Part shown: piece by piece, positions 6,596 through 30,364 of the stretch
Position numbering within the stretch: position 1 is the first letter of the stretch
How the letters are laid out: the number at the start of each line of letters is the position of its first letter
IMG/VR virus record: IMGVR_UViG_3300033064_002919
Span: 1 to 33,450 of that record
DNA: 33,450 nucleotides
Strand: one strand, 5' to 3'
Source of the DNA: a virus
The notes under the pieces: generated by a model
Told to the model about the DNA's origin: nothing
Database searches by the model: none
What the model saw: only the letters and a program-made list of their open reading frames with translations
Made by a program: the position numbers and the translations under genes

Positions 6596-6736
6596 GTAAG
6601 CGATCTCCGTGAGTGTTGGAACTGCGTGCGTCTGTTGATGTGTCGCTTCAACTCAGCGGAGTGGAGGTGCTGTCGAGACCTGCCTGATCGAATTGTTTGG
6701 ATTTTAATCTAAATTAGATTTACGAGTACGAAGATG
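6596..6736 (-). promoter_or_regulatory. Control region for the capsid unit, with perfect palindrome at 6706-6720
   Basis: This non-coding stretch lies between the capsid start and an upstream terminator, so transcription of the capsid probably starts here. It contains the 15-nt dyad AATCTAAATTAGATT (6706-6720), with core TCTAANTTAGA shared with two other intergenic sites, in an AT-rich patch (about 6691-6720) within GC-rich DNA. A TAAAAT-like -10 follows the palindrome on the minus strand, but I see no matching -35 at 17 nt. An activated or phage-specific promoter is therefore more likely than plain sigma70. Function inferred. Confidence 0.55.
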
Positions 6737-6765
6737 AAAAAAGAGCCGCGGGGTTAGCGCGGCTC
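6737..6765 (-). terminator. Rho-independent terminator upstream of the capsid unit
   Basis: On the minus strand an 8-bp perfect stem GAGCCGCG.. / ..CGCGGCTC with a 7-nt loop is followed by six T residues. It lies 18 nt past the stop of the 130-aa gene and so ends transcription coming from terminase, portal, scaffold and surface-protein genes before the capsid gene. Confidence 0.85.
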
Positions 6766-6783
6766 GGTTGGCGATAAGCAGTG

Positions 6784-7176
6784 TTAGATCATTGAGTTCT
6801 GGACCAGCTTCAAGTCCATCCGCGCCAGGGCGGCGAAAGGCTCTTGCTCAGTCACATCAATTGCATTGAGCAAAGCCTCGCATTGCGGCAGCGTGACAGC
6901 ACCTTTGCCCAGCTCAACGATGGTCTCAGGTTGCCCGGGTACAGTCGTTGCCAATCCCTCAGTGTCAAAGCTGGTCAGCGGCAGCAGCGCAGCGAGTTCG
7001 GCATCGATCATTCCAGCGGCAACGAAGTGCGTGGCTGGCAGCGATCCGTTGATTGACACAGGGGTAGCCAGCATCCCGTCACCAGCCGCACCCTCCGACA
7101 GGCCAGCGCATAAAGCACGGGCGAGAGGGGCGTAGGCAGCAGGGACGATCAGGCAGCGGTGGACGTATTGAGTCAT
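6784..7176 (-). CDS. Phage protein following the lectin-like gene, 130 aa
   Basis: Begins MTQYVHRCLIVPAAYAPLAR and is rich in Ala, Leu and Gly. A motif VSINGSLPATHFVAAGMID is followed by VELGKGAVTLPQCEALLNAID. It is translationally coupled to the 461-aa lectin-like gene through a TAATG junction and is the last gene before the terminator at 6737-6765. Similar short proteins are found after tail or surface-fibre genes in other phages, but no function is known to me. An assembly partner for the fibre is possible; no chaperone motif is visible. Confidence 0.6.
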   Translation of the reverse strand: MTQYVHRCLIVPAAYAPLARALCAGLSEGAAGDGMLATPVSINGSLPATHFVAAGMIDAELAALLPLTSFDTEGLATTVPGQPETIVELGKGAVTLPQCEALLNAIDVTEQEPFAALARMDLKLVQNSMI

Positions 7177-8561
7177 TAGTAGGCTCCCGTCTTGCTGTTG
7201 ACATAGGTTTCTGCGCTGGTAATCTGGGCATCGCTGCTCAGTGCGCCACGGATGACCATGCCGTACATTTGGCCGTTGAAGAACAAGCTGGGGCCTGCAC
7301 GGGCGCCGATGTAAACAGGAACTGCTTGAAACGTACCACCCAGCGTTTGGCTAATCCCATTAGCCGCAGTCCGACCACCATTGACATACAAAGCAAAAGT
7401 GTTGCCGCCTAAGTCAGTCAGCATTGATATTACCGATGTGTTTGGAGCTGCAATGACGGGCGTTTGTGTGGCGCTAGAAGACGACCCATAAAAAACCGCT
7501 TGGTAATTTGCCAAACCTCCAGAAGAAGCCCGCAGATACATTTCACCAACAGTGGCAACTGATGTATCGCCTAGTTCCATAATGGTGCCGTTTGACGCAG
7601 CATCACTCAGCTTCCTAACCCCCGCCACAACAGTCATCTTGTCCGTGCCGCTGAAGTCAATTGAGGCGGTGGACATCCAACTGTTCGTGCCGTTGAACTT
7701 CAAGTAGCTGGGGAAGCCTACGCTGTCGTAGTCGGTGCTGGTGTTTACTCGCTGGTAGCGGGTGGCTGTTGAGCCGGTTTCTATCTGTGCCCCCCAAGGA
7801 AATAGAGTACCTGTCGTTAGGGATGAGCCGTTCGTATCCCAAGTTAGGATGGCTTGGATTTGGGTTAATGCCGAAACCAAGTTAGCGCTGATCGAGATGC
7901 GGTAAAAACCATTGCCCACAGCTTGCACCGTTGCAGTTGGGCTGGTCGCAGTGCCGTAGATTGTCGGGCCAGAGACTATTACGCCATCAGCCAAACGAAC
8001 AGTCATTACAGCACCGTTAGCACCCGACCCATCTTGCACGTTGACAGCGCAACTGTCCTCTGTTCCGGCCTTTATGTAGATAGACCATGTGTATGCCCCT
8101 GTTGCCGTAGCTCCAATATTGAAACGCAACCGCTTCAAGAGGTTGCTGGGGTCAGTACTCCCGTAAGCGCCGCAAGCCGACCCATCTGGAGCAACCACAG
8201 TGCCAGCGACAGGGCCAATGTTTGTCTTTATCCACGCAGCACCCGAAAAGTCTGCCGAAGGAGATACCAGATTCACCCGCGACGACAGCACCGGTCTGTT
8301 GATGGCCGTTGGCTGTGTCGCGTGATTGCCGCGTCCTGACTTGTCTAGCATCTTGCCGACAGGCTGTTCCATGCTCGTCACGGGCGTTGTGCCTGCAGAG
8401 TCTTGGAAGAGGGTTGTCATGTCGCTTGGGTCGTACCATGCGCCTTGCTCACTGGAGCGGAATAGCGCTGCGATGGCTCCAGAAAGTGACAGCCCAGCGC
8501 CCCACACCGAGCGCCAGGCCGGAGCCGCAGCTTTTGCCCAAGCCGGGCTGAAGGCGCTCAT
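7176..8561 (-). CDS. Lectin-like (LamG/concanavalin-type) virion surface or fibre protein
   Basis: The 461-residue protein begins with an Ala-rich segment, then AWYDPSDMTTLFQDSAGTTP and MLDKSGRGNHATQP, motifs common to phage fibre proteins. The middle (about 95-280) looks like a carbohydrate-binding jelly-roll (YTWSIYIKAGTED, VGNGFYRISISANL, WGAQIETGSTATRYQRV). The C-terminal part (about 295-461) resembles a LamG/concanavalin sandwich, with LKFNGTNSWMSTASIDFSG, FALYVNGGRTAA, VYIGARAG and GMVIRGALSSDAQITSAETY. Its ATG overlaps the stop of the 109-aa gene. It lies between scaffold and capsid genes rather than in the tail module, so a capsid-surface fibre is possible. Sugar binding is inferred. 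Confidence 0.7.
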   Translation of the reverse strand: MSAFSPAWAKAAAPAWRSVWGAGLSLSGAIAALFRSSEQGAWYDPSDMTTLFQDSAGTTPVTSMEQPVGKMLDKSGRGNHATQPTAINRPVLSSRVNLVSPSADFSGAAWIKTNIGPVAGTVVAPDGSACGAYGSTDPSNLLKRLRFNIGATATGAYTWSIYIKAGTEDSCAVNVQDGSGANGAVMTVRLADGVIVSGPTIYGTATSPTATVQAVGNGFYRISISANLVSALTQIQAILTWDTNGSSLTTGTLFPWGAQIETGSTATRYQRVNTSTDYDSVGFPSYLKFNGTNSWMSTASIDFSGTDKMTVVAGVRKLSDAASNGTIMELGDTSVATVGEMYLRASSGGLANYQAVFYGSSSSATQTPVIAAPNTSVISMLTDLGGNTFALYVNGGRTAANGISQTLGGTFQAVPVYIGARAGPSLFFNGQMYGMVIRGALSSDAQITSAETYVNSKTGAY

Positions 8562-8887
8562 GTGCCGACTTCGCCCACGCCGGCGCCCGCAACGGCGATA
8601 AAGCGGACGGCGGTAACGTTGCTCACCTGTTCGGCCGTGACCGCCGCGACGGTACCAGAGGCCCAGTCGAAAGCGACAGCGTTGCTGGTGGCGTTGGCGT
8701 TATCGGCCACCACCACGTCGAGCAGGCTGCAGGTGGCCTGCACCCTCATGCTGGTGCCGGGCGCAGCGACGATTGTGGCTGTCTCGTTGACGATGATCCA
8801 TGGTGAGGTCTCGGTGGCAGGGACAGCGGCGCGGACGCGGCGCGGCGCGCTGCGGGGCATGCCTTGGTAAGTGAGTGTCGTGGCCAT
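8558..8887 (-). CDS. Small beta-rich structural protein, 109 aa
   Basis: After a basic stretch (RSAPRRVRAAVPA) the protein is mostly strands: SPWIIVNETATIVAAPG, RVQATCSLLDVVVADN, AVRFIAVAGAGVGEV. The pattern recalls short phage proteins with one small beta-sandwich. AAGGAGAG lies 7 nt before ATG 8887, a strong ribosome site. The following lectin-like gene starts in its stop codon (ATGA). Located directly after the scaffold gene, it could be a decoration or anchor protein for the lectin-like chain. That is inference from order and coupling. Confidence 0.6.
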   Translation of the reverse strand: MATTLTYQGMPRSAPRRVRAAVPATETSPWIIVNETATIVAAPGTSMRVQATCSLLDVVVADNANATSNAVAFDWASGTVAAVTAEQVSNVTAVRFIAVAGAGVGEVGT

Positions 8888-8909
8888 AGTCGCTCTCCTT
8901 CAGGGGTTG

Positions 8910-9920
8910 TTAGATCGTGTCGCCGCGCATGCGGCTGAGGACTTCCTCGGGCAGCTTGGCGAAGTCCTGCTGGTTCATCTTCATGACGGCCTTGGCGTCG
9001 AACGCGCCGCCGGCCTTGTCGCTGTCGATGCCGACCTTGGTCGTGCTGGCCGGGGTGCTCTCGACAGCGGCGATGGTCTTGGCGGCAGCGGCCAGCTTGC
9101 GGGCAGCAGCGACAGAGGCGGCGTCCGACTTGGGCGCGGGGGCGAGCGTCTTAATCTGGGCGGCCGTGGTGGCGCCGAGCTCCTTGCGCACGGCTTTCTG
9201 CATTGCCTCGGTCGGGTTCATGCCCTGGGCTTCGTAGCCGTTTTTCATCAGGATGACCTCGGCCATGGCCTCGGCATCAAAGTCCACATGGGCCTCGTCG
9301 AGCATGGGGTACTGCGCCTCGATGCGGTCGAGGGCGTTCATGTAGCGCGCGCTCTCGGCGGCCTGGCTCTGGGCGGCGCGGATTTTGAGGTCACTTTTGG
9401 CCTCGGCCATCTCGCGCTCAGCCCGGCGAATCTGGGACATGACGGCGGTGGCCTTGTCGATCTCGCCGTCGGTCAGCAGGGTGGCGTACTCTTTCTCGAG
9501 CTGGGCCACGACGGCGTCGGTGGCCGTGACGTTCTCGGACAACGTGGCGGTGTCTTTCAGGGCTTTGAGGGCGGCGTTCTCGCGGCGCAGCTCGTCGGCG
9601 GTTTCCCGGGCCTTGGCAAGTATGGCCTCGTGGCGGTCGAGCGGGATGCGCTTGCCGCGCGGCTTGGTCTTGTCGGCGTCCTTGTCCTCGTCGTCGTCTT
9701 CCTCGGCGGCAGGAGGGACGTCGGCGGCCTTGGCGGCGAGCTCGGCTTCGAGAGCAGCGGCGGTGGCTGCCTCGGTGACGCCGCCCTTGCCTGCTTCGGC
9801 ATCAGCGGCTGCGGCAGCGGCGCCGGGGTCAAAGTCGTCGCCGCGGTCGAGCGTGCCGGTGCCGCCGGCGTCGAGGTCGTCATTCATCAGCCGGTGGCGC
9901 AGGAGGTGCTTGGGGTTCAT
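8910..9920 (-). CDS. Scaffolding protein
   Basis: The 336-residue protein has the composition of a phage scaffold. It has an acidic, Ala-rich, disordered N-terminus (AAEEDDDEDKDADK), a long charged helical centre (HEAILAKARETADELRRENA, VMSQIRRAEREMAEAKSDL) and a helical C-terminus ending FAKLPEEVLSRMRGDTI. P22-like and N4-gp56-type capsids use such internal scaffolds, whose C-terminal helix contacts the capsid. Its ATG overlaps the portal stop (ATGA), the usual portal-scaffold pairing. Capsid lies about 2.3 kb further downstream, which is unusual. No protease domain is seen. Confidence 0.8.
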   Translation of the reverse strand: MNPKHLLRHRLMNDDLDAGGTGTLDRGDDFDPGAAAAAADAEAGKGGVTEAATAAALEAELAAKAADVPPAAEEDDDEDKDADKTKPRGKRIPLDRHEAILAKARETADELRRENAALKALKDTATLSENVTATDAVVAQLEKEYATLLTDGEIDKATAVMSQIRRAEREMAEAKSDLKIRAAQSQAAESARYMNALDRIEAQYPMLDEAHVDFDAEAMAEVILMKNGYEAQGMNPTEAMQKAVRKELGATTAAQIKTLAPAPKSDAASVAAARKLAAAAKTIAAVESTPASTTKVGIDSDKAGGAFDAKAVMKMNQQDFAKLPEEVLSRMRGDTI

Positions 9921-12124
9921 GGTTCAGGTCCTTGAGGTGGGTTAGCGGGTGGGGTTGGCGGTGCTGGGGGTTTGGCGGCAGCGGTGGCGGCGTCCTGGGC
10001 GGCCTTGACGCGGGCGTCGACACGTTTCTGGGCGGCGTCCTGGGCCTGCAGCTGGAGCTTGTCGTCGGCGGTGCGGACCTTGAGCTGGTGGTCCATCTCG
10101 GCCATGCGCTCCTTGTGGGCCTGCTCGCGCTCTTTCATCTGCGCCTCGTGCTCGGCCTGGGCCTGCTCCAGCTCGGGGTTGCCAGCGGCGGGCGCTGCAA
10201 TCGGGGTGCTGGCCAGGGTCTGGGCCTTGACACCGGTCTCCTGGGTCTTGGCCTGCTTGAGCTGGGCGTCGGCGTTCTTCTGGGCGACTTCGGCTTCGGT
10301 CTTGGACACCTCGGCTGCCTGCCCGCGCGCGGCCAACTGGGCCTGGGCCTGGGCTTCGGGCGAGTTTTTGCCGGCCTCCATCTGCTTGATGATGTCTTTC
10401 TTGTTGATCAGGCGGCTGTTGTCGATCAGCACGCTGTCGGGGATCATCACGCCCATCTCGCGCAGCGACGTGGCCTGCTCGAACTGGCTGTCTTCCAGGG
10501 TCTCGCGGCGCGGCACGGAGCTGACGACGATGCCGTACTCGCCCAGCGTCAGGTCGTTGAGGATCTCCTCGTAGGGGCCTTCCATGCCCTGTGCCTCGTA
10601 CTCTTCCCGGCTCATCGGGTTGGGCTGGTTGACGGTGAAGTTCTCGGTCTCGCCGGTGGCCTCGTCCTTGGTGATGCTCTCGAGGCGCTCTTCGGTGTAG
10701 AACTCCTGCACCAGATCCAAAATGTTGCGCGCCAGCATCCAGTCGGTGCGGGTCAGCGAGTCCAGCGGCTTGACCAAGTTGGTGCTGCCGGCCTGCTTTT
10801 TGGCCTGGATCGCCTTGGCGGCGACGTCGGCGCGGTCCATGCCCTGCATGGAGTCGCTGACGCCGGAGATCGTCTTGATGTGCTCTTCGGCCTTGTAGCT
10901 GGCGCGGTCCAGACCCTGCGGGACCTGGTTGGGCTGAATCTTGTCGATCCCGTCCATCTCGTTGACCTCGACCACGAGACCGGTCTGGGCGCCCTTCTGC
11001 TCGAGCTCCTCGATGGTCATGTTGACCAGCGCGCCGGCTTTGACCTTCCAGCCGCTGTTGGCGGTGGTGTTGATGACGTGCAGCTCCTGGCTGGTGACCT
11101 TGTTGAGCAGCTCCTGGGAGCCGATCAGGTTCTCGACCAGCCCGACCGTGTGGCCGTAGCGGAAGTGCGGGAAGTACGGCACGATGGTGAAGTGCTTGTA
11201 CGGGCTCCAGTCGTCGTGGAGCTTGACGTTGTCGGCAATCACCGTCCATTTGATGCGCCGCACCATCTGGGTGATGACCTGAAAGCCGTACTTCTCGCGG
11301 AAAAAGGCGATCTTGTCGCGGCCGAAGTCGTCGGGCACCGGGCGGGTGTCACCGGTCTCGGGACTCAGGAAGTGCTTCTGCTTGTCGAGCACACGGTGCT
11401 GGCGCTCGATCAGCCGGATGTTGCGCATCACGGCGCTTTCGTCGTAGTTGCCGATGTACTGCGGGTACTGCTGGCTGCCGAAGCGGTCGCGCAGGCTCTC
11501 GATGGAGTCAAAGCCGTATGGGAAGGCGCTCTGGTCGCGGTTGCGCAGCAGCTCGGCGTCGGCCTTGCTGTACAGGATGGCGATGTCGTCGGCTGTTACC
11601 CACTTGGTGGTGAACACCTCGCCCCAGGTGTCGGGGTCGTAGCCCTCGGCGTCCGGGTCAACGACGACGTTCTTGGGGTTGATGTTGTCGATTACGACCT
11701 CGCCCTGCATGTTGTCGCCGTAGGCGATGCGCACGTCGAGGTAGCCGCGCGAGCCGATGATGCCGTCGGCGAACATGTCGCTGCGCTTCCAATCGAGCTG
11801 GTTGTTGTCGCTGATCTGCTTGTAGACCTTGCTCAGGATGTCGGCCGTAGAGGCGCTGGAGCCGCTGCGGGGCCGGAAACTCGTCTCGGCGCGGTTGAAA
11901 ATCTGTTCGCCCAGCACGTTGCCGACGGTGGAGATGATCTTGTTGATGGTCAGCGCCGGGCGGCGCACCAAGTCGAGCCGGGCCTTGTCGGCGCGGTCCC
12001 ACTGGTCGCCGCGGAACATGCGCTCACACAGGTCGACCTTCTTGACGAAGTCGCTGTGGCCGTTGTCGCGGCAGTACTGGTAGCGGTTCCAGATGCGCTG
12101 GCTGAGGGCGGTGTCGACGGGCAT
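9917..12124 (-). CDS. Portal protein, P22-like
   Basis: This 735-residue protein shows features of P22-type portals: an early RMFRGDQWDRADKARLDL and RRPALTINKIISTVGNVLGEQ, then LFRP-like text replaced here by RAETSFRPRSGSSAS. It continues with NPKNVVVDPDAEGYDPDTWG and GQELLNKVTSQ-like SQELLNKVTSQELHVIN. A long Gln/Ala/Glu-rich helical C-terminus (about 600-735) corresponds to the barrel. Portals form the DNA entry ring at one capsid vertex. TGGAG precedes ATG 12124. It lies in the normal order between terminase and scaffold. Confidence 0.9.
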   Translation of the reverse strand: MPVDTALSQRIWNRYQYCRDNGHSDFVKKVDLCERMFRGDQWDRADKARLDLVRRPALTINKIISTVGNVLGEQIFNRAETSFRPRSGSSASTADILSKVYKQISDNNQLDWKRSDMFADGIIGSRGYLDVRIAYGDNMQGEVVIDNINPKNVVVDPDAEGYDPDTWGEVFTTKWVTADDIAILYSKADAELLRNRDQSAFPYGFDSIESLRDRFGSQQYPQYIGNYDESAVMRNIRLIERQHRVLDKQKHFLSPETGDTRPVPDDFGRDKIAFFREKYGFQVITQMVRRIKWTVIADNVKLHDDWSPYKHFTIVPYFPHFRYGHTVGLVENLIGSQELLNKVTSQELHVINTTANSGWKVKAGALVNMTIEELEQKGAQTGLVVEVNEMDGIDKIQPNQVPQGLDRASYKAEEHIKTISGVSDSMQGMDRADVAAKAIQAKKQAGSTNLVKPLDSLTRTDWMLARNILDLVQEFYTEERLESITKDEATGETENFTVNQPNPMSREEYEAQGMEGPYEEILNDLTLGEYGIVVSSVPRRETLEDSQFEQATSLREMGVMIPDSVLIDNSRLINKKDIIKQMEAGKNSPEAQAQAQLAARGQAAEVSKTEAEVAQKNADAQLKQAKTQETGVKAQTLASTPIAAPAAGNPELEQAQAEHEAQMKEREQAHKERMAEMDHQLKVRTADDKLQLQAQDAAQKRVDARVKAAQDAATAAAKPPAPPTPPANPPQGPEP

Positions 12125-12126
12125 GC

Positions 12127-12483
12127 TTACTCCAGGAATTTCAGCCGGTACAGCGCCTGGGCGCAGACGGCGGTGATGACGTCAATGAGGCTCTGGATGG
12201 CGGAATTACCGTCGGCACACTCGGGGCCGTACTCCTGCAGCCAGTCTGTCAGCGCCTGGATGTAGGCGACCGGATTGCCGGTCGGCACCTTGATCGCCGG
12301 GTAGGAATTGACGTGGCCTTTGAGCCCCTGATAGACCTCGGCGAACTCGTCGGTGGCCTCCAGGATGTCGTCGTAGAAGGTCTGCAGCGCCATGTGCTGG
12401 GCGTAGCTGCGGGTCGACAGGTGCGTCAGGTGGGCGGCCGTCCGCGCGGCAAAGCAGCGCGCGATGATTTCGGGGGCGCTCAA
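12127..12483 (-). CDS. Small helical (ferritin-like?) phage protein with TTG start
   Basis: The only in-frame upstream initiator is TTG 12483, preceded at 6 nt by GGGGGTGG on the minus strand. The next Met is 30 codons inside the conserved-looking part, so TTG is preferred. The product is all-helical: MSAPEIIARCFAARTAAHL, then STRSYAQHMALQTFYDDIL and EFAEVYQGLKG. This resembles a family I recall as DUF5856, whose His/Asp/Glu spacing suggests a ferritin-like bundle. It sits between large terminase and portal. Function unknown; the family link is weak. Confidence 0.6.
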   Translation of the reverse strand: MSAPEIIARCFAARTAAHLTHLSTRSYAQHMALQTFYDDILEATDEFAEVYQGLKGHVNSYPAIKVPTGNPVAYIQALTDWLQEYGPECADGNSAIQSLIDVITAVCAQALYRLKFLE

Positions 12484-12496
12484 GAAGCCACCCCCA

Positions 12497-14089
12497 TCAT
12501 GCCGTCATGTGGCTGCCGGCCCCGTTCAGGTTGTTGAGTTTGCTGCGCCACGATTTTGGCTCCTTGGAACGAGGTTTAGCTGGAGGTTCGCGGCCGATCG
12601 CCATCTGCGTCATCCAGGCGATCGAGTCGACCTGGTCATCATGGACGCCGGCGGGGAAGCGGAGAAGTTCGAGCCGGGCGGCGTCATACCACTCGGCGTG
12701 ATCGTTGAAGCTGACCATGCCCTGCTGCATCCGGCCCTGCAGCGGGCGAGCCCGCGCCATCTTGTCGGAGATGGGTTTGAGCACCACGATGGAGGGGTAG
12801 ACACGGCGTTCTCGCATTCTCTTCTTTAATAGAGCTTCGATTGCACGGTAGATTTGCCCGTCTTCGAAGCCGAGCATTAGGCCAGGACTATACCACCTCG
12901 AACATAGATTTAAGATTGACTCGACGATGAAAAACGAGTCAGCTGACTTGTAGCGCAGGATTTCGGCGACGTGCAGCACGTCGTCGGCGTCCTGCAGCCC
13001 GACGGTGCCGACGGTGTAGTCGTTCTGCTTTTTCTCGCTGATGGCGAAGTCGAAGGCGATGTAGACGTTGGCTTGGGTGATGAAGGGCACCGTCCCGCGC
13101 CTGAAGTGCTCCTTGAGGAAGTAGGCACCGTCGTCCGGGACCGGGTTCTGCTGGTACAGGGCTGACCAGAAGCGCGGGCTGATGGTGCGCTTGATCTGGT
13201 TGAGCTTCTGGATGTCGTAGCGGGCCTGGTGCAGCGGCTCGCCCTTGCGGCGCAGCAGCTGGCCGTTGGCCGGGGGTGCGTCGACGATCAGGTCGCAGTC
13301 GTGGTCGAGGTATTCGTCGAATTCGGCGATCGCTGGGTACTTGACAACGACAAAGTGGTCAGCCTCGGGGTCGGCGGCCATCGCAACCTGCAACTTTCCT
13401 GCAAGGTCATCGTCATGCCACCAGGTTTGTACCAACAATACTCCACCGCCTGGAGCCAGGCGCGTGTAGGCGGTGGAGTCATACCATTCCTTGAGTTTTT
13501 CGCGGTTGTCGGCGCTGTCGGCCTCCTCCGCATTCTTGATCGGGTCGTCAATCGTGAGGATGTGGGCGCCCTTGCCGGTGATACCGCCGCCGACACCGGC
13601 CGCCACGTAGCCGCCGCGCCGGCCCTGCACGCCCCACTCCTCCGCACCCTGAAAGTTCGGGTTCAGCCGGGTGTCGAACACGCTGTGGTAGCTCGGGTCC
13701 TCGAGCACCTCCTTGACCTTGCGCGAAAACGACATGGCCAGGCCCACGTTATACGAGCAGGCGATGATTTCGTGGTCGGGGTGCCGGCCGAGGTGCCAGG
13801 CCGGGAACATCCGGCTGCCCAGCTCGCTTTTGCCATGCCGGGGCGGCATCAGGATCATCAGCCGGGGGCTGAGACCCTTGGCCACGTCGTCGCTGAATTT
13901 TTCTAAGCGCCTGCAGATGTCCTCATGCACCCAGCCGGCCAGGTAGCGCGGGTTGATCCGCTGGGTGAAGGGCAGTAAACGCCTTCGGCTCAGAATCCTG
14001 GAGGCCAGCTCGGCCTGGACGGCGGGGTCAGCGCTTGGGAGTAGCGCCGGTGGCTGCCCAGTGGGCGAGGTCCGCGTACTCAAGGCCAT
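12497..14089 (-). CDS. terL: Terminase large subunit
   Basis: The 530-residue protein has both terminase domains. The ATPase has Walker A PPRHGKS (82-88) and Walker B ILTIDDP with D181/D182, plus a coupling-like QTWW. The RNase H-type nuclease has acidic residues in IAFDFA (D347), GFEDGQ (D410) and HDDQVDS (D484-D488). This arrangement is that of phage packaging motors that cut concatemers and pump DNA through the portal. Its ATG overlaps the stop of the 55-aa gene before it (TGATG). The nuclease motifs look intact. Packaging strategy (cos or pac) cannot be told from this window. Confidence 0.92.
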   Translation of the reverse strand: MALSTRTSPTGQPPALLPSADPAVQAELASRILSRRRLLPFTQRINPRYLAGWVHEDICRRLEKFSDDVAKGLSPRLMILMPPRHGKSELGSRMFPAWHLGRHPDHEIIACSYNVGLAMSFSRKVKEVLEDPSYHSVFDTRLNPNFQGAEEWGVQGRRGGYVAAGVGGGITGKGAHILTIDDPIKNAEEADSADNREKLKEWYDSTAYTRLAPGGGVLLVQTWWHDDDLAGKLQVAMAADPEADHFVVVKYPAIAEFDEYLDHDCDLIVDAPPANGQLLRRKGEPLHQARYDIQKLNQIKRTISPRFWSALYQQNPVPDDGAYFLKEHFRRGTVPFITQANVYIAFDFAISEKKQNDYTVGTVGLQDADDVLHVAEILRYKSADSFFIVESILNLCSRWYSPGLMLGFEDGQIYRAIEALLKKRMRERRVYPSIVVLKPISDKMARARPLQGRMQQGMVSFNDHAEWYDAARLELLRFPAGVHDDQVDSIAWMTQMAIGREPPAKPRSKEPKSWRSKLNNLNGAGSHMTA

Positions 14090-14256
14090 CAGAGGCCAAA
14101 ATTGTCATTGTCATCCATCAGGCTGGCGCGCCGCTCGTCAATCTCGGCCTGCAACATCGCCGCAAACAGGTCGTCTGCGGCGGCGTAGCGGCGCTCCCGT
14201 TCGATGACCTCGGCATGGAGGGCGTCGATGGCGTCGATTGTGTTATTCCGGGTCAT
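14089..14256 (-). CDS. Small protein upstream of large terminase, 55 aa
   Basis: ATG 14256 (MTRNNTIDAIDALHAEVIER) is preferred to an earlier in-frame Met because the extension is basic and unlike the rest. The product is one or two charged helices (AADDLFAAMLQAEIDERRAS) ending in DDNDNFGL. It overlaps the preceding 55-aa gene by 14 nt and its stop overlaps the large terminase ATG. The position between terminase subunits suggests a packaging accessory, but no motif shows it. Confidence 0.55.
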   Translation of the reverse strand: MTRNNTIDAIDALHAEVIERERRYAAADDLFAAMLQAEIDERRASLMDDNDNFGL

Positions 14257-14410
14257 TGAGCATCCCCTGAATCTCGGCAATCATGCCCATCGCCTCGAGC
14301 GCGACGGTCAGCTGGCCCGAATTTCGGGCTGCGTCAGCGATCTCCAGAATCTGCCGGCTGACAAAGTCTTTGTCGAAGGTGGGGGCCTTGGGAATTAACG
14401 GGTTTGACAT
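14243..14410 (-). CDS. Small helical protein, 55 aa
   Basis: A short frame starts at ATG 14410 (MSNPLIPKAPTFDKDFVSRQ) with GGAGCCGCCC upstream and ends at TAA 14243. The rest is helical (ILEIADAARNSGQLTVALEA, then MIAEIQGMLNDPE). It fills the gap between the 89-aa gene and the next small gene with a 14-nt overlap, and its composition matches its neighbours, so it is probably real. Function unknown; the spacing suggests cotranslation with the terminase genes. Confidence 0.55.
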   Translation of the reverse strand: MSNPLIPKAPTFDKDFVSRQILEIADAARNSGQLTVALEAMGMIAEIQGMLNDPE

Positions 14411-14433
14411 GGGCGGCTCCTAGTTAGAGGGGT

Positions 14434-14703
14434 TTAATCCGCGGCGCGGGTGTCGATGAACACCGGTGTGCCCTCGCCCATCCACGCGCCGATCGTGTTG
14501 AACTCAAAGAACTCTTCGGCGTCTTCCCGGGACATGTCCCGAGCCAGGATGTCGATGCACCGGCTGCGGTCGTAGGCCACCACGCGTAGGCCGCCGGCCC
14601 GCTCACAGATGCCGATCACGGCCTCGTCGAAGTCGGCGGGTTCCAGAAGCAGGGCCTCGTCGCCGTCCAGCAGCTCGTTTAACCGTTCGCGCGTGTAGTT
14701 CAT
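14434..14703 (-). CDS. Conserved small phage protein, 89 aa
   Basis: Start ATG 14703 overlaps the small-terminase stop (ATGA); a longer frame would overlap that gene out of frame. The sequence (NYTRERLNELLDGDEALLLE, EAVIGICERAGGLRVVAYDR, FFEFNTIGAWMGEGTPVFID) matches a pattern common in phage genomes, with a conserved 'E-F-x-F-N-T-x-G-x-x-G-E-G-T-P' end. No activity is known to me. It is acidic with a probable alpha/beta fold. Placement between terminase subunits may be incidental. Confidence 0.65.
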   Translation of the reverse strand: MNYTRERLNELLDGDEALLLEPADFDEAVIGICERAGGLRVVAYDRSRCIDILARDMSREDAEEFFEFNTIGAWMGEGTPVFIDTRAAD

Positions 14704-15326
14704 GGTTTCTCCGGTGGGTTGAGCGCCTGCTGGGCGCCTTGGGTGATGACTTTGAGCAACTCGGCGTCGCTCATGCCGTTCAGACGGTCGATCACGACGT
14801 TCCCGCTGACGTCGACCTTGATCTTGTGTTCCACGGGGGCGTAGTAGCCGCACATCTTTCCGATCTCGCGCCAGCCGGAGATCATGGTCATGGGCTCGGC
14901 CATCAGTTTGGCCATCTCCACGCCCTCGAGCAGCCCGTCCATGACTTTCTGGCGGGTCATCTGCCCGGCCTCCTCGTACTTCGCCTTGATCTGGTGGTAC
15001 AGCTGCAGCACGTTGGGGTACTTGGCCAGCCGGTAGGGGACGGCGCTGCTTTCGTAGCCCGCACGTACTCCGGCGGTGGACAACGACTCGCCTTCGGCCC
15101 AGAACTTGACGAAGAGCTTCTGTTTGTCGGTCAGCGGCTTGTCGGGGTCGATGACCTCGGCCAATTCGGCGGCTGACAGGTTGGAGGTGTCGACGCCGCG
15201 TGACCTGGCGGCGCTTACGCCCCGGCCGGTGTTCGCCCCGCGCACCGTGCGCTTGGTTTTTGGGGTCGTGTCTTTCATTTGCTTACCGCGCTCGGTGAAA
15301 GCTTCGAAGGGCTTGGCTCTTGGCAT
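14700..15326 (-). CDS. terS: Terminase small subunit
   Basis: After a basic N-terminal tail the protein has LTDKQKLFVKFWAEGESLST and AGVRAGY, the helix-turn-helix entry typical of phage small terminases. Helices for oligomerisation follow (QLYHQIKAKYEEAGQMTRQK) with a short C-terminal tail. It recognises phage DNA and loads the large subunit. ATG 15326 lies only 11 nt after the palindrome TCTAACTTAGA. If that palindrome overlaps the promoter, the real start may be ATG 15278 (residue 17, MKDTTPKTKR), giving a 192-residue protein. It is the first gene of the minus-strand arm. Confidence 0.8.
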   Translation of the reverse strand: MPRAKPFEAFTERGKQMKDTTPKTKRTVRGANTGRGVSAARSRGVDTSNLSAAELAEVIDPDKPLTDKQKLFVKFWAEGESLSTAGVRAGYESSAVPYRLAKYPNVLQLYHQIKAKYEEAGQMTRQKVMDGLLEGVEMAKLMAEPMTMISGWREIGKMCGYYAPVEHKIKVDVSGNVVIDRLNGMSDAELLKVITQGAQQALNPPEKP

Positions 15327-15337
15327 CTTGGCGGCAT

Positions 15338-15355
15338 TCTAACTTAGAGGTTAGA
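15338..15355. promoter_or_regulatory. Palindromic operator-like site TCTAACTTAGA plus half-site
   Basis: TCTAACTTAGA (15338-15348) is a perfect dyad with a single central base, followed at once by GGTTAGA, so that TCTAAC and GTTAGA also pair over an 18-nt span. On the minus strand the flanked form is CTCTAAGTTAGAAT, identical over 14 nt to the site upstream of the primase-helicase gene. TAGAAT could act as a -10 box for the terminase arm. Operator function is inferred from recurrence and position. Confidence 0.6.
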
Positions 15356-15432
15356 TGGCTGGGAAATCTCGTGGCGAATTGGCTGGGAAAAATTTATGAA
15401 ATTTTTCTGGAATCGGCCGCGTGAGGCTCCCC

Positions 15433-15460
15433 CCGGGTGCCTCGTTCCGAGGCTACCCGG
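15433..15460. other. Strong hairpin without U tract in control region
   Basis: CCGGGTGCCTCG and CGAGGCTACCCGG pair over 12 bp with one bulged T and a TTC loop. Neither strand has a following T run, so it is not a normal intrinsic terminator. In RNA it would be a stable leader structure on plus-strand transcripts starting upstream; in DNA it could be a cruciform or protein site. Confidence 0.5.
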
Positions 15461-15486
15461 TTCGGATTCGGGTTCATCCGCTCTCT

Positions 15487-15500
15487 ATAGGGGACCCTAT
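15487..15500. promoter_or_regulatory. Dyad ATAGGGGACCCTAT
   Basis: A perfect 6-bp inverted repeat (ATAGGG/CCCTAT) separated by GA. Preceded by CTCTCT it gives CTCTCTATAGGGG, superficially like the core of T7-type promoters, but the upstream half of that consensus is absent and no single-subunit RNA polymerase gene lies in the window. An operator is the simpler reading. Confidence 0.4.
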
Positions 15501-15528
15501 CCCTCAACCATCCCCGCTCACGAAGTCA

Positions 15529-15548
15529 ACGACGAACAAGTTCGTCGT
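15529..15548. promoter_or_regulatory. Perfect 9-bp inverted repeat
   Basis: ACGACGAAC and GTTCGTCGT are separated by AA, giving a 20-nt near-perfect palindrome about 52 nt before the first early gene. The two-base centre is too tight for a comfortable RNA loop, which favours binding by a dimeric protein. No similar site is seen at the other control regions. Confidence 0.5.
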
Positions 15549-15600
15549 ACTGCATGCGTTGTTCGAGCATCTTCGCTCTTATCAATAGATTGGATACGTA

Positions 15601-15840
15601 ATGACCATCGCTAACACACTGGGCCGTGCCATTGGTGCTACCGCCGCATACACCGCTCACGCAGCTGCCGTGAGCATCAAGTCGACCGGCCGCTTCGGCG
15701 TCGACCTGATCGACGGCACCACCGAGGGCTACGCAGACCACTCTGCGCGCCTCGCCGCCCAGCGCGAGCTGGCCTACGGCGCCGCCGGCAAGCCCAAGTC
15801 CATCGCCATCGCTGTCAAGCGCAAGGCAGCCACCGCCTGA
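15601..15840 (+). CDS. First early protein, 79 aa, unknown
   Basis: ATG 15601 has only GGA about 7 nt upstream. The product begins MTIANTLGRAIGATAAYTAH, continues ISKSTGRFG-like VSIKSTGRFGVDLIDGTTEG and ends with a basic tail (KRKAATA). The Ala/Gly-rich helical N-terminus could touch a membrane. Similar short proteins with 'TGRFG' and 'GYADH' motifs are recalled from other phages, but no function is known to me. It is a single gene closed by its own terminator at 15846-15870, so it may be produced at high level immediately after infection. Confidence 0.65.
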   Translation: MTIANTLGRAIGATAAYTAHAAAVSIKSTGRFGVDLIDGTTEGYADHSARLAAQRELAYGAAGKPKSIAIAVKRKAATA

Positions 15841-15845
15841 TCACC

Positions 15846-15870
15846 GCGCCCGGGCAACCGGGTGCTTTTT
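15846..15870 (+). terminator. Rho-independent terminator after first early gene
   Basis: GCGCCCGG / CCGGGTGC form an 8-bp stem with one G-U pair around a GCAA tetraloop, followed by five T residues. It begins 5 nt after the TGA stop. Downstream early genes would need read-through, antitermination or a separate promoter. Confidence 0.85.
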
Positions 15871-15922
15871 CGTCCCGTGGTTATGCACCAAGGGCATTTT
15901 TCATTCTTGTTTGGAGATCGCT

Positions 15923-16204
15923 ATGAACACCGTTAAAGCTAAACCTGTCGGCTCAATGACCAAAGCCGAGTTGCTCGCCCACATCGCGGGCTTAGATGCC
16001 CGCATTCTCGTCGGCGCAAAGCTGGTGCGCGACCTGCGCACCGAGCTCGCCATGGTCAACCAGCCAGCGCTGGTGTACACGCAGGCCGCGCCTGCTGCGC
16101 ACAAGGCGTACTACGACTACGTCCGGGCACAACGCACCGCGTGCAAGGCCGCCGGCCAGCGCGTCGTGTCGTACCAGACGTTCGCGCAGTGGTCTGCGCA
16201 TTAA
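15923..16204 (+). CDS. Small early protein, 93 aa, unknown
   Basis: ATG 15923 is chosen because GGAG lies 6 nt upstream; an in-frame TTG at 15911 would place the ribosome site inside the gene. The product begins MNTVKAKPVGSMTKAELLAH, then helical IAGLDARILVGAKLVRDLRT, and ends with a Tyr/Arg-rich stretch (KAYYDYVRAQRTACKAAGQR) that could bind nucleic acid or protein. No family is recognised. It lies in the cassette of small genes separated by hairpins that opens the early arm. Confidence 0.6.
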   Translation: MNTVKAKPVGSMTKAELLAHIAGLDARILVGAKLVRDLRTELAMVNQPALVYTQAAPAAHKAYYDYVRAQRTACKAAGQRVVSYQTFAQWSAH

Positions 16205-16265
16205 ACAACCCAGCAACGGGGCCAGCGGTGACGCTGACTCCGTGCTATTAAATTAGGAGCATCGA

Positions 16266-16577
16266 ATGATCGACGCAGTTTTGCTTTTTGGGCTGATCAA
16301 CATTGTCTTCGAGATGGTGTTGCTCAGCATGCTGCCGGTTAAGTTCCGGCTGAAGTTGCTTGGCACGCATCAATTGCAGCTCGTGCTGCATGTGCTGTTC
16401 CTCGTCGCCAACCTGCTGGTGCACTGGGGAACACTGGTGGGCACGATGTCCTCGATTCTTGCGTTCTGCGCATCAATCGTCTCCGTTCGCATCGCCCAGA
16501 TGCTGTTCGGAAAAATCGAGGGCGGGCGGTACTACACCGTCGGCCTCATTAAATACAAAGCCGAGGAGTTGACATGA
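16266..16577 (+). CDS. Small membrane protein, 103 aa, three predicted TM segments
   Basis: AGGAG lies 7 nt before ATG 16266. Three hydrophobic stretches are visible: about 1-22 (AVLLFGLINIVFEMVLLSML), about 37-60 (LQLVLHVLFLVANLLV) and about 60-82 (MSSILAFCASIV). A basic loop (KFRLKLLGTH) sits between the first two, and the short C-terminal tail is charged (KIEGGRYYTVGLIKYKAEEL). The size and topology overlap with holins, but it lies in the early arm with no endolysin nearby, so a role in taking over the host membrane is equally possible. Its stop overlaps the start of a 29-aa membrane peptide. Confidence 0.65.
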   Translation: MIDAVLLFGLINIVFEMVLLSMLPVKFRLKLLGTHQLQLVLHVLFLVANLLVHWGTLVGTMSSILAFCASIVSVRIAQMLFGKIEGGRYYTVGLIKYKAEELT

Positions 16578-16663
16578 GTGAACGAATGATCGACGTGCTG
16601 TACGCCGTCGCAACCGTACTCATCACAGCCGGTGTCGGCGTGATGCTGGCGTGGAGGGGTTGA
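16574..16663 (+). CDS. Single-pass membrane peptide, 29 aa
   Basis: ATG 16574 overlaps the stop of the membrane protein gene as ATGA, and the frame ends at TGA 16661, three bases before the next ATG. After a short polar start (MSERMID) the remainder is one hydrophobic helix (VLYAVATVLITAGVGVMLAW) ending RG. The exact fit between two genes and the coupled start make it likely to be translated. It may be a partner of the larger membrane protein, like small regulatory or holin-type peptides; unproven. Confidence 0.55.
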   Translation: MSERMIDVLYAVATVLITAGVGVMLAWRG

Positions 16664-16665
16664 AC

Positions 16666-16935
16666 ATGGCACGCATTTACATGGTCTGCCACGTTCTGGC
16701 CGACGGCAACGCTGGCTTCCCAACTCGCATCTTTGCAATGAAGGAAGACGCGCACAGGTTCTGCGTCGAAGTCAAAAAGACCAGCAGTCGCGTGTACATC
16801 GTGCATGACTGCATCGTCATACCTGACAAAAGCCGTGACCTCGCCCACGAAGCTGACATGCGCGCGATGCGCAAAGAGCAGCTCGAAGCTGACTTCGCTG
16901 ACGACCCAGAGTTCGACTGTGATTTCAGCTACTGA
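16666..16935 (+). CDS. Small early protein, 89 aa, unknown
   Basis: ATG 16666 follows GGAGGGG by about 6 nt, one of the best ribosome sites in the window. The product starts MARIYMVCHVLADGNAGFPT, has an alternating alpha/beta look (RIFAMKEDAHRFCVEVKK, SRVYIVHDCIVI) and ends strongly acidic (DFADDPEFDCDF). An acidic small early protein could mimic DNA or bind a host enzyme, but nothing specific shows it. A stable hairpin follows the stop. Confidence 0.6.
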   Translation: MARIYMVCHVLADGNAGFPTRIFAMKEDAHRFCVEVKKTSSRVYIVHDCIVIPDKSRDLAHEADMRAMRKEQLEADFADDPEFDCDFSY

Positions 16936-16944
16936 CTGAAGACA

Positions 16945-16979
16945 ACGCCCGGCAAGCCGGGCGTACTGCATTCGTTTTT
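16945..16979 (+). terminator. Hairpin with delayed T run, probable weak terminator
   Basis: A 9-bp perfect inverted repeat (ACGCCCGGC and GCCGGGCGT around AA, 16945-16964) is followed 11 nt later by TTTTT. The gap between stem and T run makes it weaker than the terminators at 15846 and 18584; it may instead protect or process mRNA. Confidence 0.5.
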
Positions 16980-17010
16980 GGGCATGTCGCCCGTTTACAT
17001 AGGATTTTCA

Positions 17011-17268
17011 ATGACGCACACCATCGCTATCAAGCGCTTGCCCTACATGGGCATCCCTGTTGACTCCAAAGTCAAGCGCGCTGTCCAGCCATCGCTGGAG
17101 ATCCCATTCTCCGCCCTGCACGAGTACGAGCTCGAGCAAGTCGAGGCTCGGCTGCAGGTCAGCACCGATCCGTTCGACGTCCTCGCGGGGAAAGTCGAAC
17201 ACCTTGCACAGCTGCTGGGCTGTTCCGAAGCGCAGGCCGAACGCGTGCTCTTTGCACGCCTCAAATGA
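17011..17268 (+). CDS. Small early protein, 85 aa, unknown
   Basis: ATG 17011 has AGGA 7 nt upstream; an earlier in-frame Met lies in the hairpin-rich leader and is rejected. The product begins MTHTIAIKRLPYMGIPVDSK, then helical FSALHEYELEQVEARLQVST and VLAGKVEHLAQLLGCSEAQA. The last part reads like a small helical bundle. Its stop overlaps a possible ATG for the next gene (ATGA). No family recognised. Confidence 0.6.
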   Translation: MTHTIAIKRLPYMGIPVDSKVKRAVQPSLEIPFSALHEYELEQVEARLQVSTDPFDVLAGKVEHLAQLLGCSEAQAERVLFARLK

Positions 17269-17540
17269 TCCGCAGCCGCGACGACGAGCAGCGCCACATC
17301 TGGCGCTGCATGAATGCACCGCTGCTCACAACAGCGTTTGTTGTGCCCTACCAAATAGAAAGGTATCCCGTGACATTGCTCCCAAAACCGCTGGAACCCA
17401 AAAAGATGACCTACGACGAAGCCTACGAGCTGGCCTACGAGCAAGCCTGCGAGTCGGACAGCCCCAACTCGCCTGACTTTGATCAGCTCGTCGACATCTT
17501 CATCGACATGTTGTGCATCAAACACAACATCGAGGCCTGA
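17265..17540 (+). CDS. Small acidic early protein, 91 aa (or 56 aa from GTG 17370)
   Basis: Two starts are possible. ATG 17265 overlaps the preceding stop (ATGA). GTG 17370 has GAAAGG about 6 nt upstream and begins at the part that looks like a folded protein (VTLLPKPLEPKKMTYDEAYE). The intervening DNA holds a perfect GCGCCA/TGGCGC hairpin (17293-17308 region), which would suit a leader. The conserved-looking core is an acidic helix pair (LAYEQACESD, DFDQLVDIFIDMLC). Function unknown. Confidence 0.5.
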   Translation: MIRSRDDEQRHIWRCMNAPLLTTAFVVPYQIERYPVTLLPKPLEPKKMTYDEAYELAYEQACESDSPNSPDFDQLVDIFIDMLCIKHNIEA

Positions 17541-17551
17541 AAGCATCACTG

Positions 17552-17589
17552 GCTGTCTCGCATGCGGGACAGCTGGGGAATCTTTCCCA
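17552..17589 (+). other. Two adjacent hairpins between early genes
   Basis: GCTGTCTCG.. / ..CGGGACAGC (17552-17573) pairs over 8 bp including one G-U, and TGGGGAATCTTTCCCA (17574-17589) pairs over 6-7 bp. There is no clean T run after either. Together they lie between a stop and the ribosome site of the 320-aa gene, so they may act in mRNA stability, processing or partial termination. Confidence 0.45.
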
Positions 17590-17613
17590 CAACAACCAAA
17601 CTGAAAGCAAATC

Positions 17614-18576
17614 ATGGCTAAAACCCACACCGCACCTGTCATCTCCCCATCTTCGTTCGACCTCCCGCTGTACATCAGCGAGATCCCGCAAGTCGACCTC
17701 GCTGCTGCGCTGATGCGCAATCTGGCCGGCGCAGCTGACTTCGCCATCGTCAACGCTGCACGCAGCCTGTTCAAAGGCGTGCGTCAGGAAATCTGGCTCG
17801 GCGACTGCTCGCTGGACACGCTGGCTGACCTAAACAGCGCACTAAACGAGCAATCGTTCGCCGAGGACAGCTTCAAAGCTGCCGGCTCCAGCAACATTGG
17901 CAACATCGAGACGATCAAGAACTTGTGGCCGCTCCGCGAAAGGTGGATCGAGCAAGCTCGTGACCTCACCTCACTCACCGTGAACTGGGAAGGCACGATC
18001 AACAAATTCGAGCCCAAAGACATCGAGGAGCAAATCTGCGAGCCAGAGGTCAACACCAGCAAAAAGACCATCGGACGCATCGTCAAGCAAGTCAACCGCA
18101 AGGCAGAGGAGCTGGACATCGACGAAGAAGACAAGGCTCGTACGCTGAAAAACCGTCTCGCACGGGAAGACGTCAACAACGCCAACATGATTTGCAACTT
18201 GAAAGCAACGTCGCAAGGCGTGCTGCACATGCTGTACGCAGCGATCAGGATCGACAACGAGGAAGTTGTCACCGAGATCAACGGTGCACGCAAAAGTAAG
18301 GAAAACGACTGCCACCGCGTGGCTCACGTTGCTGGCGAGCCAGACTTCCACCTGCTGCCGTACAACCTGCGCTTCAAGCTGATCAGCGAGACGATCAAGC
18401 ACACCGAGCTTCAAGCCGAGTGGGCCTGCAAAAACTCGCGCATGAGCGAAGACGAGTTCGACACGTTCGACATGCTTTGCAGCAAGTCGATGAAAGCACT
18501 GCGCAGCGTGATCAGCAGCCCACAGTTCCGCACAGCACTGGCCCAGCTTGAGGCCAGCGACGCAATGACCGGCTAA
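17614..18576 (+). CDS. Large early protein, 320 aa, unknown function
   Basis: GAAAG lies 6 nt before ATG 17614. The protein is mainly helical. It begins MAKTHTAPVISPSSFDLPLY, then DLAAALMRNLAGAADFAIVN. A charged middle (TIGRIVKQVNRKAEELDIDE, EDKARTLKNRLAREDVNNAN) could be a coiled coil. The C-terminal half (GVLHMLYAAIRIDNEEVVTE, RFKLISETIKHTELQAEWAC) is also helical. No nuclease, ATPase or DNA-binding motif is evident. It is the last and largest gene of the leading early cassette and is followed by a strong terminator, so it forms its own expression unit just before the origin-like region. A host-takeover role is possible but unsupported. Confidence 0.7.
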   Translation: MAKTHTAPVISPSSFDLPLYISEIPQVDLAAALMRNLAGAADFAIVNAARSLFKGVRQEIWLGDCSLDTLADLNSALNEQSFAEDSFKAAGSSNIGNIETIKNLWPLRERWIEQARDLTSLTVNWEGTINKFEPKDIEEQICEPEVNTSKKTIGRIVKQVNRKAEELDIDEEDKARTLKNRLAREDVNNANMICNLKATSQGVLHMLYAAIRIDNEEVVTEINGARKSKENDCHRVAHVAGEPDFHLLPYNLRFKLISETIKHTELQAEWACKNSRMSEDEFDTFDMLCSKSMKALRSVISSPQFRTALAQLEASDAMTG

Positions 18577-18583
18577 TCACACA

Positions 18584-18618
18584 CCAGACCGGCTGCTCAG
18601 GCAGCTGGTCTGGTTGTT
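18584..18618 (+). terminator. Strong 13-bp hairpin terminator
   Basis: CCAGACCGGCTGC and GCAGCTGGTCTGG pair over 13 positions with one G-U around a TCAG loop (18584-18613), followed by TTGTT. It begins 8 nt after the stop of the 320-aa gene. The T run is short and broken, but the stem is the longest in the window. Confidence 0.7.
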
Positions 18619-18692
18619 CAGCATTCGGCCACTTTATGGGCCTGCCAAACATCCATTCCATACGCGCCAACCTCTCTCTCTATATATTTATT

Positions 18693-18710
18693 TATCTATC
18701 TATCTATCTA
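18693..18710. repeat. Short tandem repeat (TATC)4
   Basis: Four exact TATC units plus TA follow TATATATTTATT, in otherwise GC-rich DNA. It is non-coding. It could be a duplex-unwinding element, iterons for an initiator, or simply a slippage product. Confidence 0.8.
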
Positions 18711-18818
18711 TTACTATTATTCTTAGACTTTAATAAGATTGGAATGGAATATAGTAATGAATAAATAGAGAACTCTCCTCTGAAGATGTGTTTTTGGGCT
18801 CTTACGTTCTGTCGAGGC

Positions 18819-18829
18819 TCTAAGTTAGA
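18819..18829. promoter_or_regulatory. Palindromic operator-like site TCTAAGTTAGA
   Basis: A perfect 11-bp dyad 43 nt before the primase-helicase ATG. With flanks it reads CTCTAAGTTAGAAT, identical over 14 nt to the minus-strand site before the terminase arm. TAGAAT at 18826-18831 could be a -10 box, but no -35 is seen 17 nt upstream. Confidence 0.6.
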
Positions 18830-18872
18830 ATTCGTCTTCACCCCCGCAGAAAACCTTGAAGGCACCTTTTCC

Positions 18873-21804: not shown

Positions 21805-21833
21805 TTGACACGCAACACACGCTGCAATCTAAT
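21805..21833 (+). promoter_or_regulatory. Sigma70 promoter with TCTAA repeats at -10 and start
   Basis: TTGACA (21805-21810) matches the -35 consensus exactly, the spacer is 17 nt, and TCTAAT (21828-21833) differs from the -10 consensus at one base. Transcription should begin near 21840, only a few bases before ATG 21843. TCTAA occurs at 21828, 21835 and 21846, half of the palindrome found at three other control sites, so the same regulator might act here. Confidence 0.8.
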
Positions 21834-21842
21834 ATCTAACAT

Positions 21843-22109
21843 ATGTCTAAGAACGATTCCATGCACTCCAGCATCAGCTTTCACGGCCCCGACGTGCAAG
21901 CCACCCTCGAGGCCAACCCAATGGTGTTCAAGGCTGTCTGGGACAACTGCGCGACGTTCGCAAATGCTTCGATCCGCGTAGATACGCACCCGTGCTACGA
22001 CGACAGCACGTTGGAATGGACGATGTGCATCGCCTCTCCAACCGGCCGCCGCACGCTCCTCGTCACCCAGCAGACGGCCACTGGCCCTGTCCGCTTCTCC
22101 AAACAATAA
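21843..22109 (+). CDS. Promoter-proximal protein, 88 aa, unknown; possibly leaderless
   Basis: ATG 21843 (MSKNDSMHSSISFHG) would be almost at the predicted transcript start. ATG 21861 (MHSSISFHGPDVQATLEANP, 82 aa) gives a leader of about 20 nt but only AAGAAC as ribosome site. The product has a mixed fold (MVFKAVWDNCATFANASIRV, TLEWTMCIASPTGRRTLLVT) and no recognised family. Being first after the only near-consensus promoter in the window, it is probably expressed strongly and early. Confidence 0.6.
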   Translation: MSKNDSMHSSISFHGPDVQATLEANPMVFKAVWDNCATFANASIRVDTHPCYDDSTLEWTMCIASPTGRRTLLVTQQTATGPVRFSKQ

Positions 22110-30336: not shown

Positions 30337-30364
30337 GATCGTCGTTCGATTAACGAAAGATTCC

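Follow-up and report, generated by a model that had tools for sequence, protein, structure and literature searches.

In phage P1, one phage repressor, C1, acts at many operators over the genome. L5-like phages carry more than 20 asymmetric operator/stoperator sites, located in promoters and short intergenic spaces and correlated in orientation with transcription (PMC9283540). In cluster K mycobacteriophages, a repeated, phage-specific word of unproven function (start-associated sequences, SAS/ESAS) stands in one orientation directly before many start codons; the SAS, 5'-GGGATAGGAGCCC, is non-palindromic, includes a Shine-Dalgarno core and occurs at non-structural genes only (PMC3203893). Here we analyzed the palindrome TCTAANTTAGA in a 33,450-bp stretch of viral DNA (IMG/VR record IMGVR_UViG_3300033064_002919, positions 1 to 33,450; hereafter the window), which stems from a phage related to Pseudomonas phage KPP25 and covers about half of a genome, given the ~65-70 kb of its relatives. 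The palindrome is part of a ~18-bp directional element that constitutes a real, conserved and phage-specific regulon. Its kind, dispersed and oriented phage operators, is known; its sequence and an unnamed candidate regulator family, here called cluster 24, are new. We favor, with a probability of about one half, an operator/stoperator-like regulon that is dispersed over the genomes of mostly temperate KPP25-related phages, is probably repressive and is read by cluster 24.

As in L5, these mostly temperate phages carry asymmetric sites genome-wide, in promoters and short gaps and with an orientation matching transcription, and the reader is a small phage-encoded DNA-binding protein, the L5 repressor there and presumably cluster 24 here. 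However, the L5 site is an asymmetric 13-mer read by a monomer, whereas the present site is an 18-bp lattice of three half-sites with a different sequence, and the hosts are Gram-negative, mostly betaproteobacterial. The L5-type (cluster A) repressor combines a helix-turn-helix with a Stoperator domain, while cluster 24 is a predicted winged helix with beta strands that has no sequence match to a solved repressor structure; the cluster A repressor was not among the cluster 24 fold matches listed. With P1 C1 the regulon shares the arrangement of one phage regulator (here a candidate) and many genome-wide operators, although the site sequence differs. Like the SAS, the element stands in one orientation a few nt ahead of start codons and sometimes overlaps the upstream stop codon, but its core is a dyad without a Shine-Dalgarno sequence, and the capsid and terminase small subunit genes are among its commonest targets, the capsid copies mostly 90-120 nt away. 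Two familiar kinds of repressor were rejected as candidates. Unlike in lambda CI-type systems, no HTH_3 or S24 repressor is shared by these phages (S24 in 0 of 20 genomes, HTH_3 above cut-off in 1 of 20), and unlike in ribbon-helix-helix heptad operator systems (Arc, omega repressor), RHH_1 was matched in 0 of 18 genomes at E ≤ 1, a profile that divergent ribbon-helix-helix proteins could escape.

The word TCTAANTTAGA has exactly three exact copies in the window (6708-6718, 15338-15348 and 18819-18829) and none in any of 100 dinucleotide shuffles. With two mismatches, the count is barely higher than chance (8 versus 3.7), so that the signal is carried by the exact word. The first copy lies between the capsid gene (5483-6595, minus strand) and the adjoining gene, and the second ends 11 nt ahead of the terminase small subunit ATG at 15326. 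The third falls within the longest open reading frame (start 18786), yet is leader rather than coding sequence because the homologous start of the primase/helicase gene is the ATG at 18873. An earlier, sequence-only reading of this DNA had reported the exact dyad at these three places and no other, had considered all three intergenic, had noticed that two of them share a 14-mer on the coding strand (CTCTAAGTTAGAAT, at the terminase and primase copies) and had judged such recurrence unlikely by chance. The whole-window count and the shuffles agree with it, the 14-mer is correct, and the third copy is intergenic by way of the homologous start.

That reading had also taken the 11-bp dyad as the functional unit, which we replace by an asymmetric composite of three half-sites with the consensus TCKAANN-TCKAANWWMGA(-TC); the consensus here, TCKAANNTCKAANWWMGA, has a dyad core. 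An additional TCKAA half-site stands 7 bp upstream in 41 of 89 distinct exact copies, versus a background of 0.5. Across 17 genomes (all in the set except KPP25), half-sites form a lattice of direct repeats at 7 bp (82 versus 5.4 expected) and of inverted, convergent pairs at 6 bp (76 versus 1.2) and 13 bp (47 versus 1.0). Weaker peaks occur at 11 and 18 bp, along with one for divergent pairs at 5 bp. The two arms show no covariation in their T/G and A/C variants (both TCTAA..TTCGA and TCGAA..TTAGA are common), as would fit independent half-sites in DNA better than an RNA stem. An RNA hairpin formed by the palindrome was ruled out on account of this independent variation and of a loop that would measure 1 nt.

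A scan of relatives with a weight matrix had been proposed in the sequence-only reading. Run with a matrix trained without the window and without KPP25, at a threshold of ~0.1 false matches per genome, it gave 5-22 sites per genome in 15 of the 17 records other than the window and 4-8 in each held-out genome carrying sites, compared with more than 20 in L5; it found no site in KPP25 or in the relative G024. The held-out window has 7 sites, 5 of them non-coding. Three comprise the exact copies, namely the capsid site (TCGTAAA-TCTAATTTAGA, 6708-6725, minus strand, score 29.4), the terminase small subunit site (TCTAACC-TCTAAGTTAGA, 15338-15355, minus strand, score 27.7) and the primase/helicase site (TCGAGGC-TCTAAGTTAGA, 18812-18829, plus strand, score 18.6). 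Two more, neither of them an exact copy, had escaped the sequence-only reading. The first (TCTAATATCTAACATATG, 21828-21845, plus strand, score 25.8) precedes a gene start probably at 21861 and has a TTGACA at 21805-21810, 17 nt upstream of its TCTAAT. The second (TCTAAGA-TCGTCGTTCGA, 30332-30349, plus strand, score 20.0) overlaps the stop codon of the preceding gene and lies 15 nt ahead of the exonuclease ATG at 30365, a gene that has a site in most relatives. The other two matches lie 75 nt apart inside terL (12823-12840 and 12898-12915, both minus strand) and are not counted as functional; they have counterparts at the same terL position in relatives and are thus probably kept by protein sequence.

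Relatives were gathered with capsid, terminase and primase queries. The word was present in 21 of 40 records of relatives, at as many as 7 exact copies in one genome; the reversed control pattern was absent. In 12 whole cellular genomes (3-7 Mb) with capsid genes of this family, the word was not above the reversed control outside phage contigs, and in one cellular genome of 4.1 Mb all five copies lie on the phage contig. A host regulator as the reader was therefore rejected. The sites are also absent from four close relatives with the same genes (G013, G021, G024 and G028). The proposal of a possible phage-wide regulon is strongly supported by these comparisons, as the sites recur at the same genes in relatives, are phage-specific and co-occur with one candidate regulator. 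Literature searches found no description of the site in the KPP25-related phage group, Rfam had no family in the window, and the first 25 kb of the window matched nothing in a near-identity search against annotated phages. Over the first 2.1 Mb of fetched loci, a different palindrome, CGAAGNCTTCG, has 90 copies and is as frequent as TCTAANTTAGA.

Cluster 24 is a family of ~125-amino-acid proteins whose presence matched that of the sites in 27 of 28 phage genomes, the best of 55 families (next best, 23 of 28; Fisher test without phylogenetic correction, 8e-7); when first scored, 13 of these records had contributed to neither the matrix nor the profile. All 10 site-free genomes lack it, including the four close relatives above, of which G013 and G021 branch within site-bearing groups of the portal tree and have lost sites and cluster 24 jointly. 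Prophage-bearing cellular genomes agree in 9 of 9 cases (4 with cluster 24 and sites, 5 with neither), and 54 cluster 24 loci, some of them from training genomes, contain 161 sites versus 0.25 expected. In relatives, the gene usually lies near ligase and integrase genes. The AlphaFold2 model (mean predicted local distance difference test score 81.6) has a winged helix and C-terminal strands, with helices at residues 6-19, 25-29 and 41-53 and strands at 57-61 and 72-76 forming a predicted three-helix core and beta wing, and with an invariant RVSDYLG..WR helix in the recognition position. Its nearest folds are MarR, Fur/Zur, ArsR and MecI regulators, at template modeling scores of about 0.4-0.46 and none with E < 0.001. 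Cluster 24 belongs to no Pfam or PHROG family, has no significant match among PDB sequences (best E 0.57, to an unrelated protein) and none in 50,697 annotated phage records.

Among the sites near a gene start, 142 of 156 are co-directional with the gene and 14 are opposite, and most end 0-30 nt ahead of the start codon. In 83 of the 115 start-proximal sites, a preceding co-directional gene ends within -30 to +60 nt, which makes these sites operon-internal. The sequence-only picture of sites at only a few control regions has to be given up, since most copies are found inside operons, directly ahead of a start codon. The genes most often targeted are those for capsid, exonuclease, cluster 16, primase, cluster 20 and the terminase small subunit. 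Capsid sites are mostly 90-120 nt upstream, directly before a -10-like hexamer (in the window, TAAAAT at 6701-6706, minus strand, with the site ending 112 nt ahead of the capsid start), and many relatives, including ones that no longer have the left arm, repeat half-site-like words beside this hexamer. As the capsid site lies upstream of the hexamer, it would not be transcribed from the capsid promoter.

In the explanation that we favor, the palindrome would be the core of a binding site on double-stranded DNA, TCKAANN-TCKAANTTMGA, with two tandem half-sites 7 bp apart and a third, inverted one 6 bp further on, and the phage-encoded winged-helix protein cluster 24 would read it at sites spread over the genome, in core promoters and in short gaps ahead of genes inside operons. 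Where an occupied site overlaps a promoter, it would cover the -10 region and stop initiation; inside an operon, it would block the elongating polymerase. In this way, a single regulator could keep the genes for capsid, packaging, replication and recombination silent as a group, either in the prophage or in early infection. The dyad with its tandem half-site, the -10 overlap, the operon gaps and the co-direction have the look of L5-like operators and stoperators, and we therefore favor repression as the effect, the setting being presumably lysogeny or timing. From its co-occurrence and predicted fold, cluster 24 is likely to bind the site, and repression by it probably affects elongation, beyond initiation. 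We propose more tentatively that these phages represent stoperator-type, genome-wide silencing outside actinobacterial phages, in which a previously unnamed winged-helix family would use an oriented three-half-site lattice before individual genes to silence initiation and elongation across the prophage. With these results, a large family of uncultured, mostly temperate KPP25-related phages gains a defined control site and a candidate regulator, neither of which has been seen in annotated phages. If the proposal is true, oriented genome-wide operators like the L5 stoperators arose independently, with an unrelated protein, in phages that infect Gram-negative bacteria, and the site offers a direct handle on lysogeny and immunity in KPP25-related phages.

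Several observations weigh against cluster 24-mediated repression. The genome G027 has 7 good sites, and cluster 24 is missing from the 60 kb read, in which its usual neighborhood is present; this contig is without the terminase small subunit and primase genes and hence incomplete. Independent site losses on the tree number 2 well supported and 4 at most, which gives little phylogenetic power, and no phylogeny-corrected significance can be claimed. The cluster 24 gene itself usually has no site upstream, unlike most phage repressors, and no fixed -35/-10 spacing was found around start-proximal sites. Finally, the window lacks the genome region with cluster 24; the sequence-only reading recognized no matching regulator there, correctly so, as the candidate is encoded in the part of the genome outside the fragment.

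Among the alternatives, we give most weight to a positive promoter element, at which cluster 24 or another phage factor would be an activator recruiting host RNA polymerase to directional sites shortly ahead of genes to make short-leader or leaderless transcripts, though we consider it unlikely. Such an activator would suit the strong orientation bias and the closeness to start codons, and TAA and TAGAAT words within the half-sites could act as -10. The TAGAAT-N7-9-ATG arrangement at the terminase small subunit gene looks leaderless (in the window, TAGAAT at 15336-15341, minus strand, overlapping the site before the ATG at 15326), and at the primase/helicase gene TAGAAT also overlaps the site (18826-18831, plus strand; start codon at 18873). 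The sequence-only suggestion of TAGAAT as a -10 box fits the terminase promoter, where TAGAAT, TACACT or TATACT is kept 5-12 nt before the ATG in most genomes. However, the position of the site relative to a -10-like hexamer is inconstant, being upstream at capsid, overlapping at the terminase small subunit and without any clear hexamer at many operon-internal sites, and no single promoter geometry suits all sites. Moreover, the terminase -10 is kept in G004, G005, G006 and G008 without an intact palindrome there, so that promoter activity does not depend on the site, which is what an operator would be expected to show.

It is quite unlikely that the element acts at the RNA level, either by signaling translation start or as the target of a translational repressor, in the manner of the cluster K start-associated sequences. 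In addition to the many copies that end 0-30 nt ahead of start codons, some of which read AAGAAAGATC or AAGGAAGATC ahead of ATG, this reading draws on Shine-Dalgarno matches, which were found in 12-22% of genes with a site end within 12 nt of the start versus 66% of controls. Leaderless transcripts explain this weakness only in part. Genes with a site at least 13 nt away have normal matches, however, the inverted half-site and the 6/7/13-bp lattice with its non-covarying arms suggest a DNA dyad, the palindromic form has no pairing to the 16S end, and the capsid copies lie mostly far upstream, before the -10. For the palindromic copies, an explanation as Shine-Dalgarno sequences was rejected; genes with a very close site mostly have no Shine-Dalgarno match.

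Still less probable is a reading in which the sites have a regulatory role but another phage protein binds them, with cluster 24 only traveling along in the same lineages. The sites of G027 and the few independent losses would be consistent with such a passenger, but cluster 24 leads the 55 families, agrees in all nine prophage-bearing genomes and has a predicted DNA-binding fold, and no HTH_3, S24 or RHH_1 alternative is common to the family. That nothing special is present, and that in a GC-rich phage the AT-rich -10 boxes and the stop/start junctions simply look alike, as the TAGAAT and TAA within the motif might suggest, is hardly tenable and already contradicted by the computations, given the absence of the word from 100 shuffles, lattice enrichments of 15- to 60-fold, the absence of sites from the four close relatives with the same genes and the lack of excess over control in host genomes.

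The nearest named phage is KPP25 (Kochitakasuvirus), with 61% identity in the capsid and 43% in the terminase; it has neither the sites, nor cluster 24, nor the integrase of the window's phage family. Integrases were found in 11 of the first 18 genomes, which points to temperate phages. In the window, the major capsid protein (5483-6595, minus strand, 370 amino acids) matches PHROG 334 (E 5.6e-74) and is the protein that is 61% identical to that of KPP25. The terminase small subunit (14700-15326, minus strand, 208 amino acids; PHROG 51/641) belongs to cluster 0, present in all 18 genomes. The primase/helicase-like protein (18873-21260, plus strand) has 795 amino acids from the homologous start and matches PHROG 1156/1829 and Pfam DUF5906, with a VapE-like domain, and the exonuclease (30365-31072, plus strand; PHROG 69) has 235 amino acids from a homologous start taken from the lengths of relatives and the reading frame. 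Between the portal and terminase genes, a DUF5856 protein (PHROG 858, labelled starvation-inducible regulator) is encoded at 12127-12483 (minus strand), and its presence tracks the sites poorly. HNH-type endonuclease-like genes lie directly downstream of site copies in G019 (27312) and G017 (13040).

Other elements were observed near the target genes. The capsid mRNA leader, in the window (6540-6690, minus strand) and in loci L084-L163, forms one or two hairpins whose stems vary while the loop, (A/G)CGA(C/T)A(C), is kept, as in GGGGC(ACGACAC)GCCCC. Stems of at least 5 were present in 40 of 51 capsid leaders, versus 10.7 with shuffled flanks; the window hairpins are GTTGA(AGCGACACA)TCAAC and AGGT(CTCGACAGC)ACCT, possibly an RNA control element, with no Rfam match. 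Upstream of the terminase small subunit -10, most relatives have a block like AAAATTTNNTAAATTTTT (window 15360-15430, minus strand) that resembles an UP element. Between the leftward terminase gene and the rightward genes, CTCTATAGGGGACCCTATCCC at 15480-15510 contains a perfect inverted repeat, ATAGGG-GA-CCCTAT, and bears a superficial likeness to a T7-type promoter word. Lastly, the AT-rich stretch upstream of the primase gene includes a ATCTATCTATCTATCTATT microsatellite (18690-18715) and is a possible replication-origin region.

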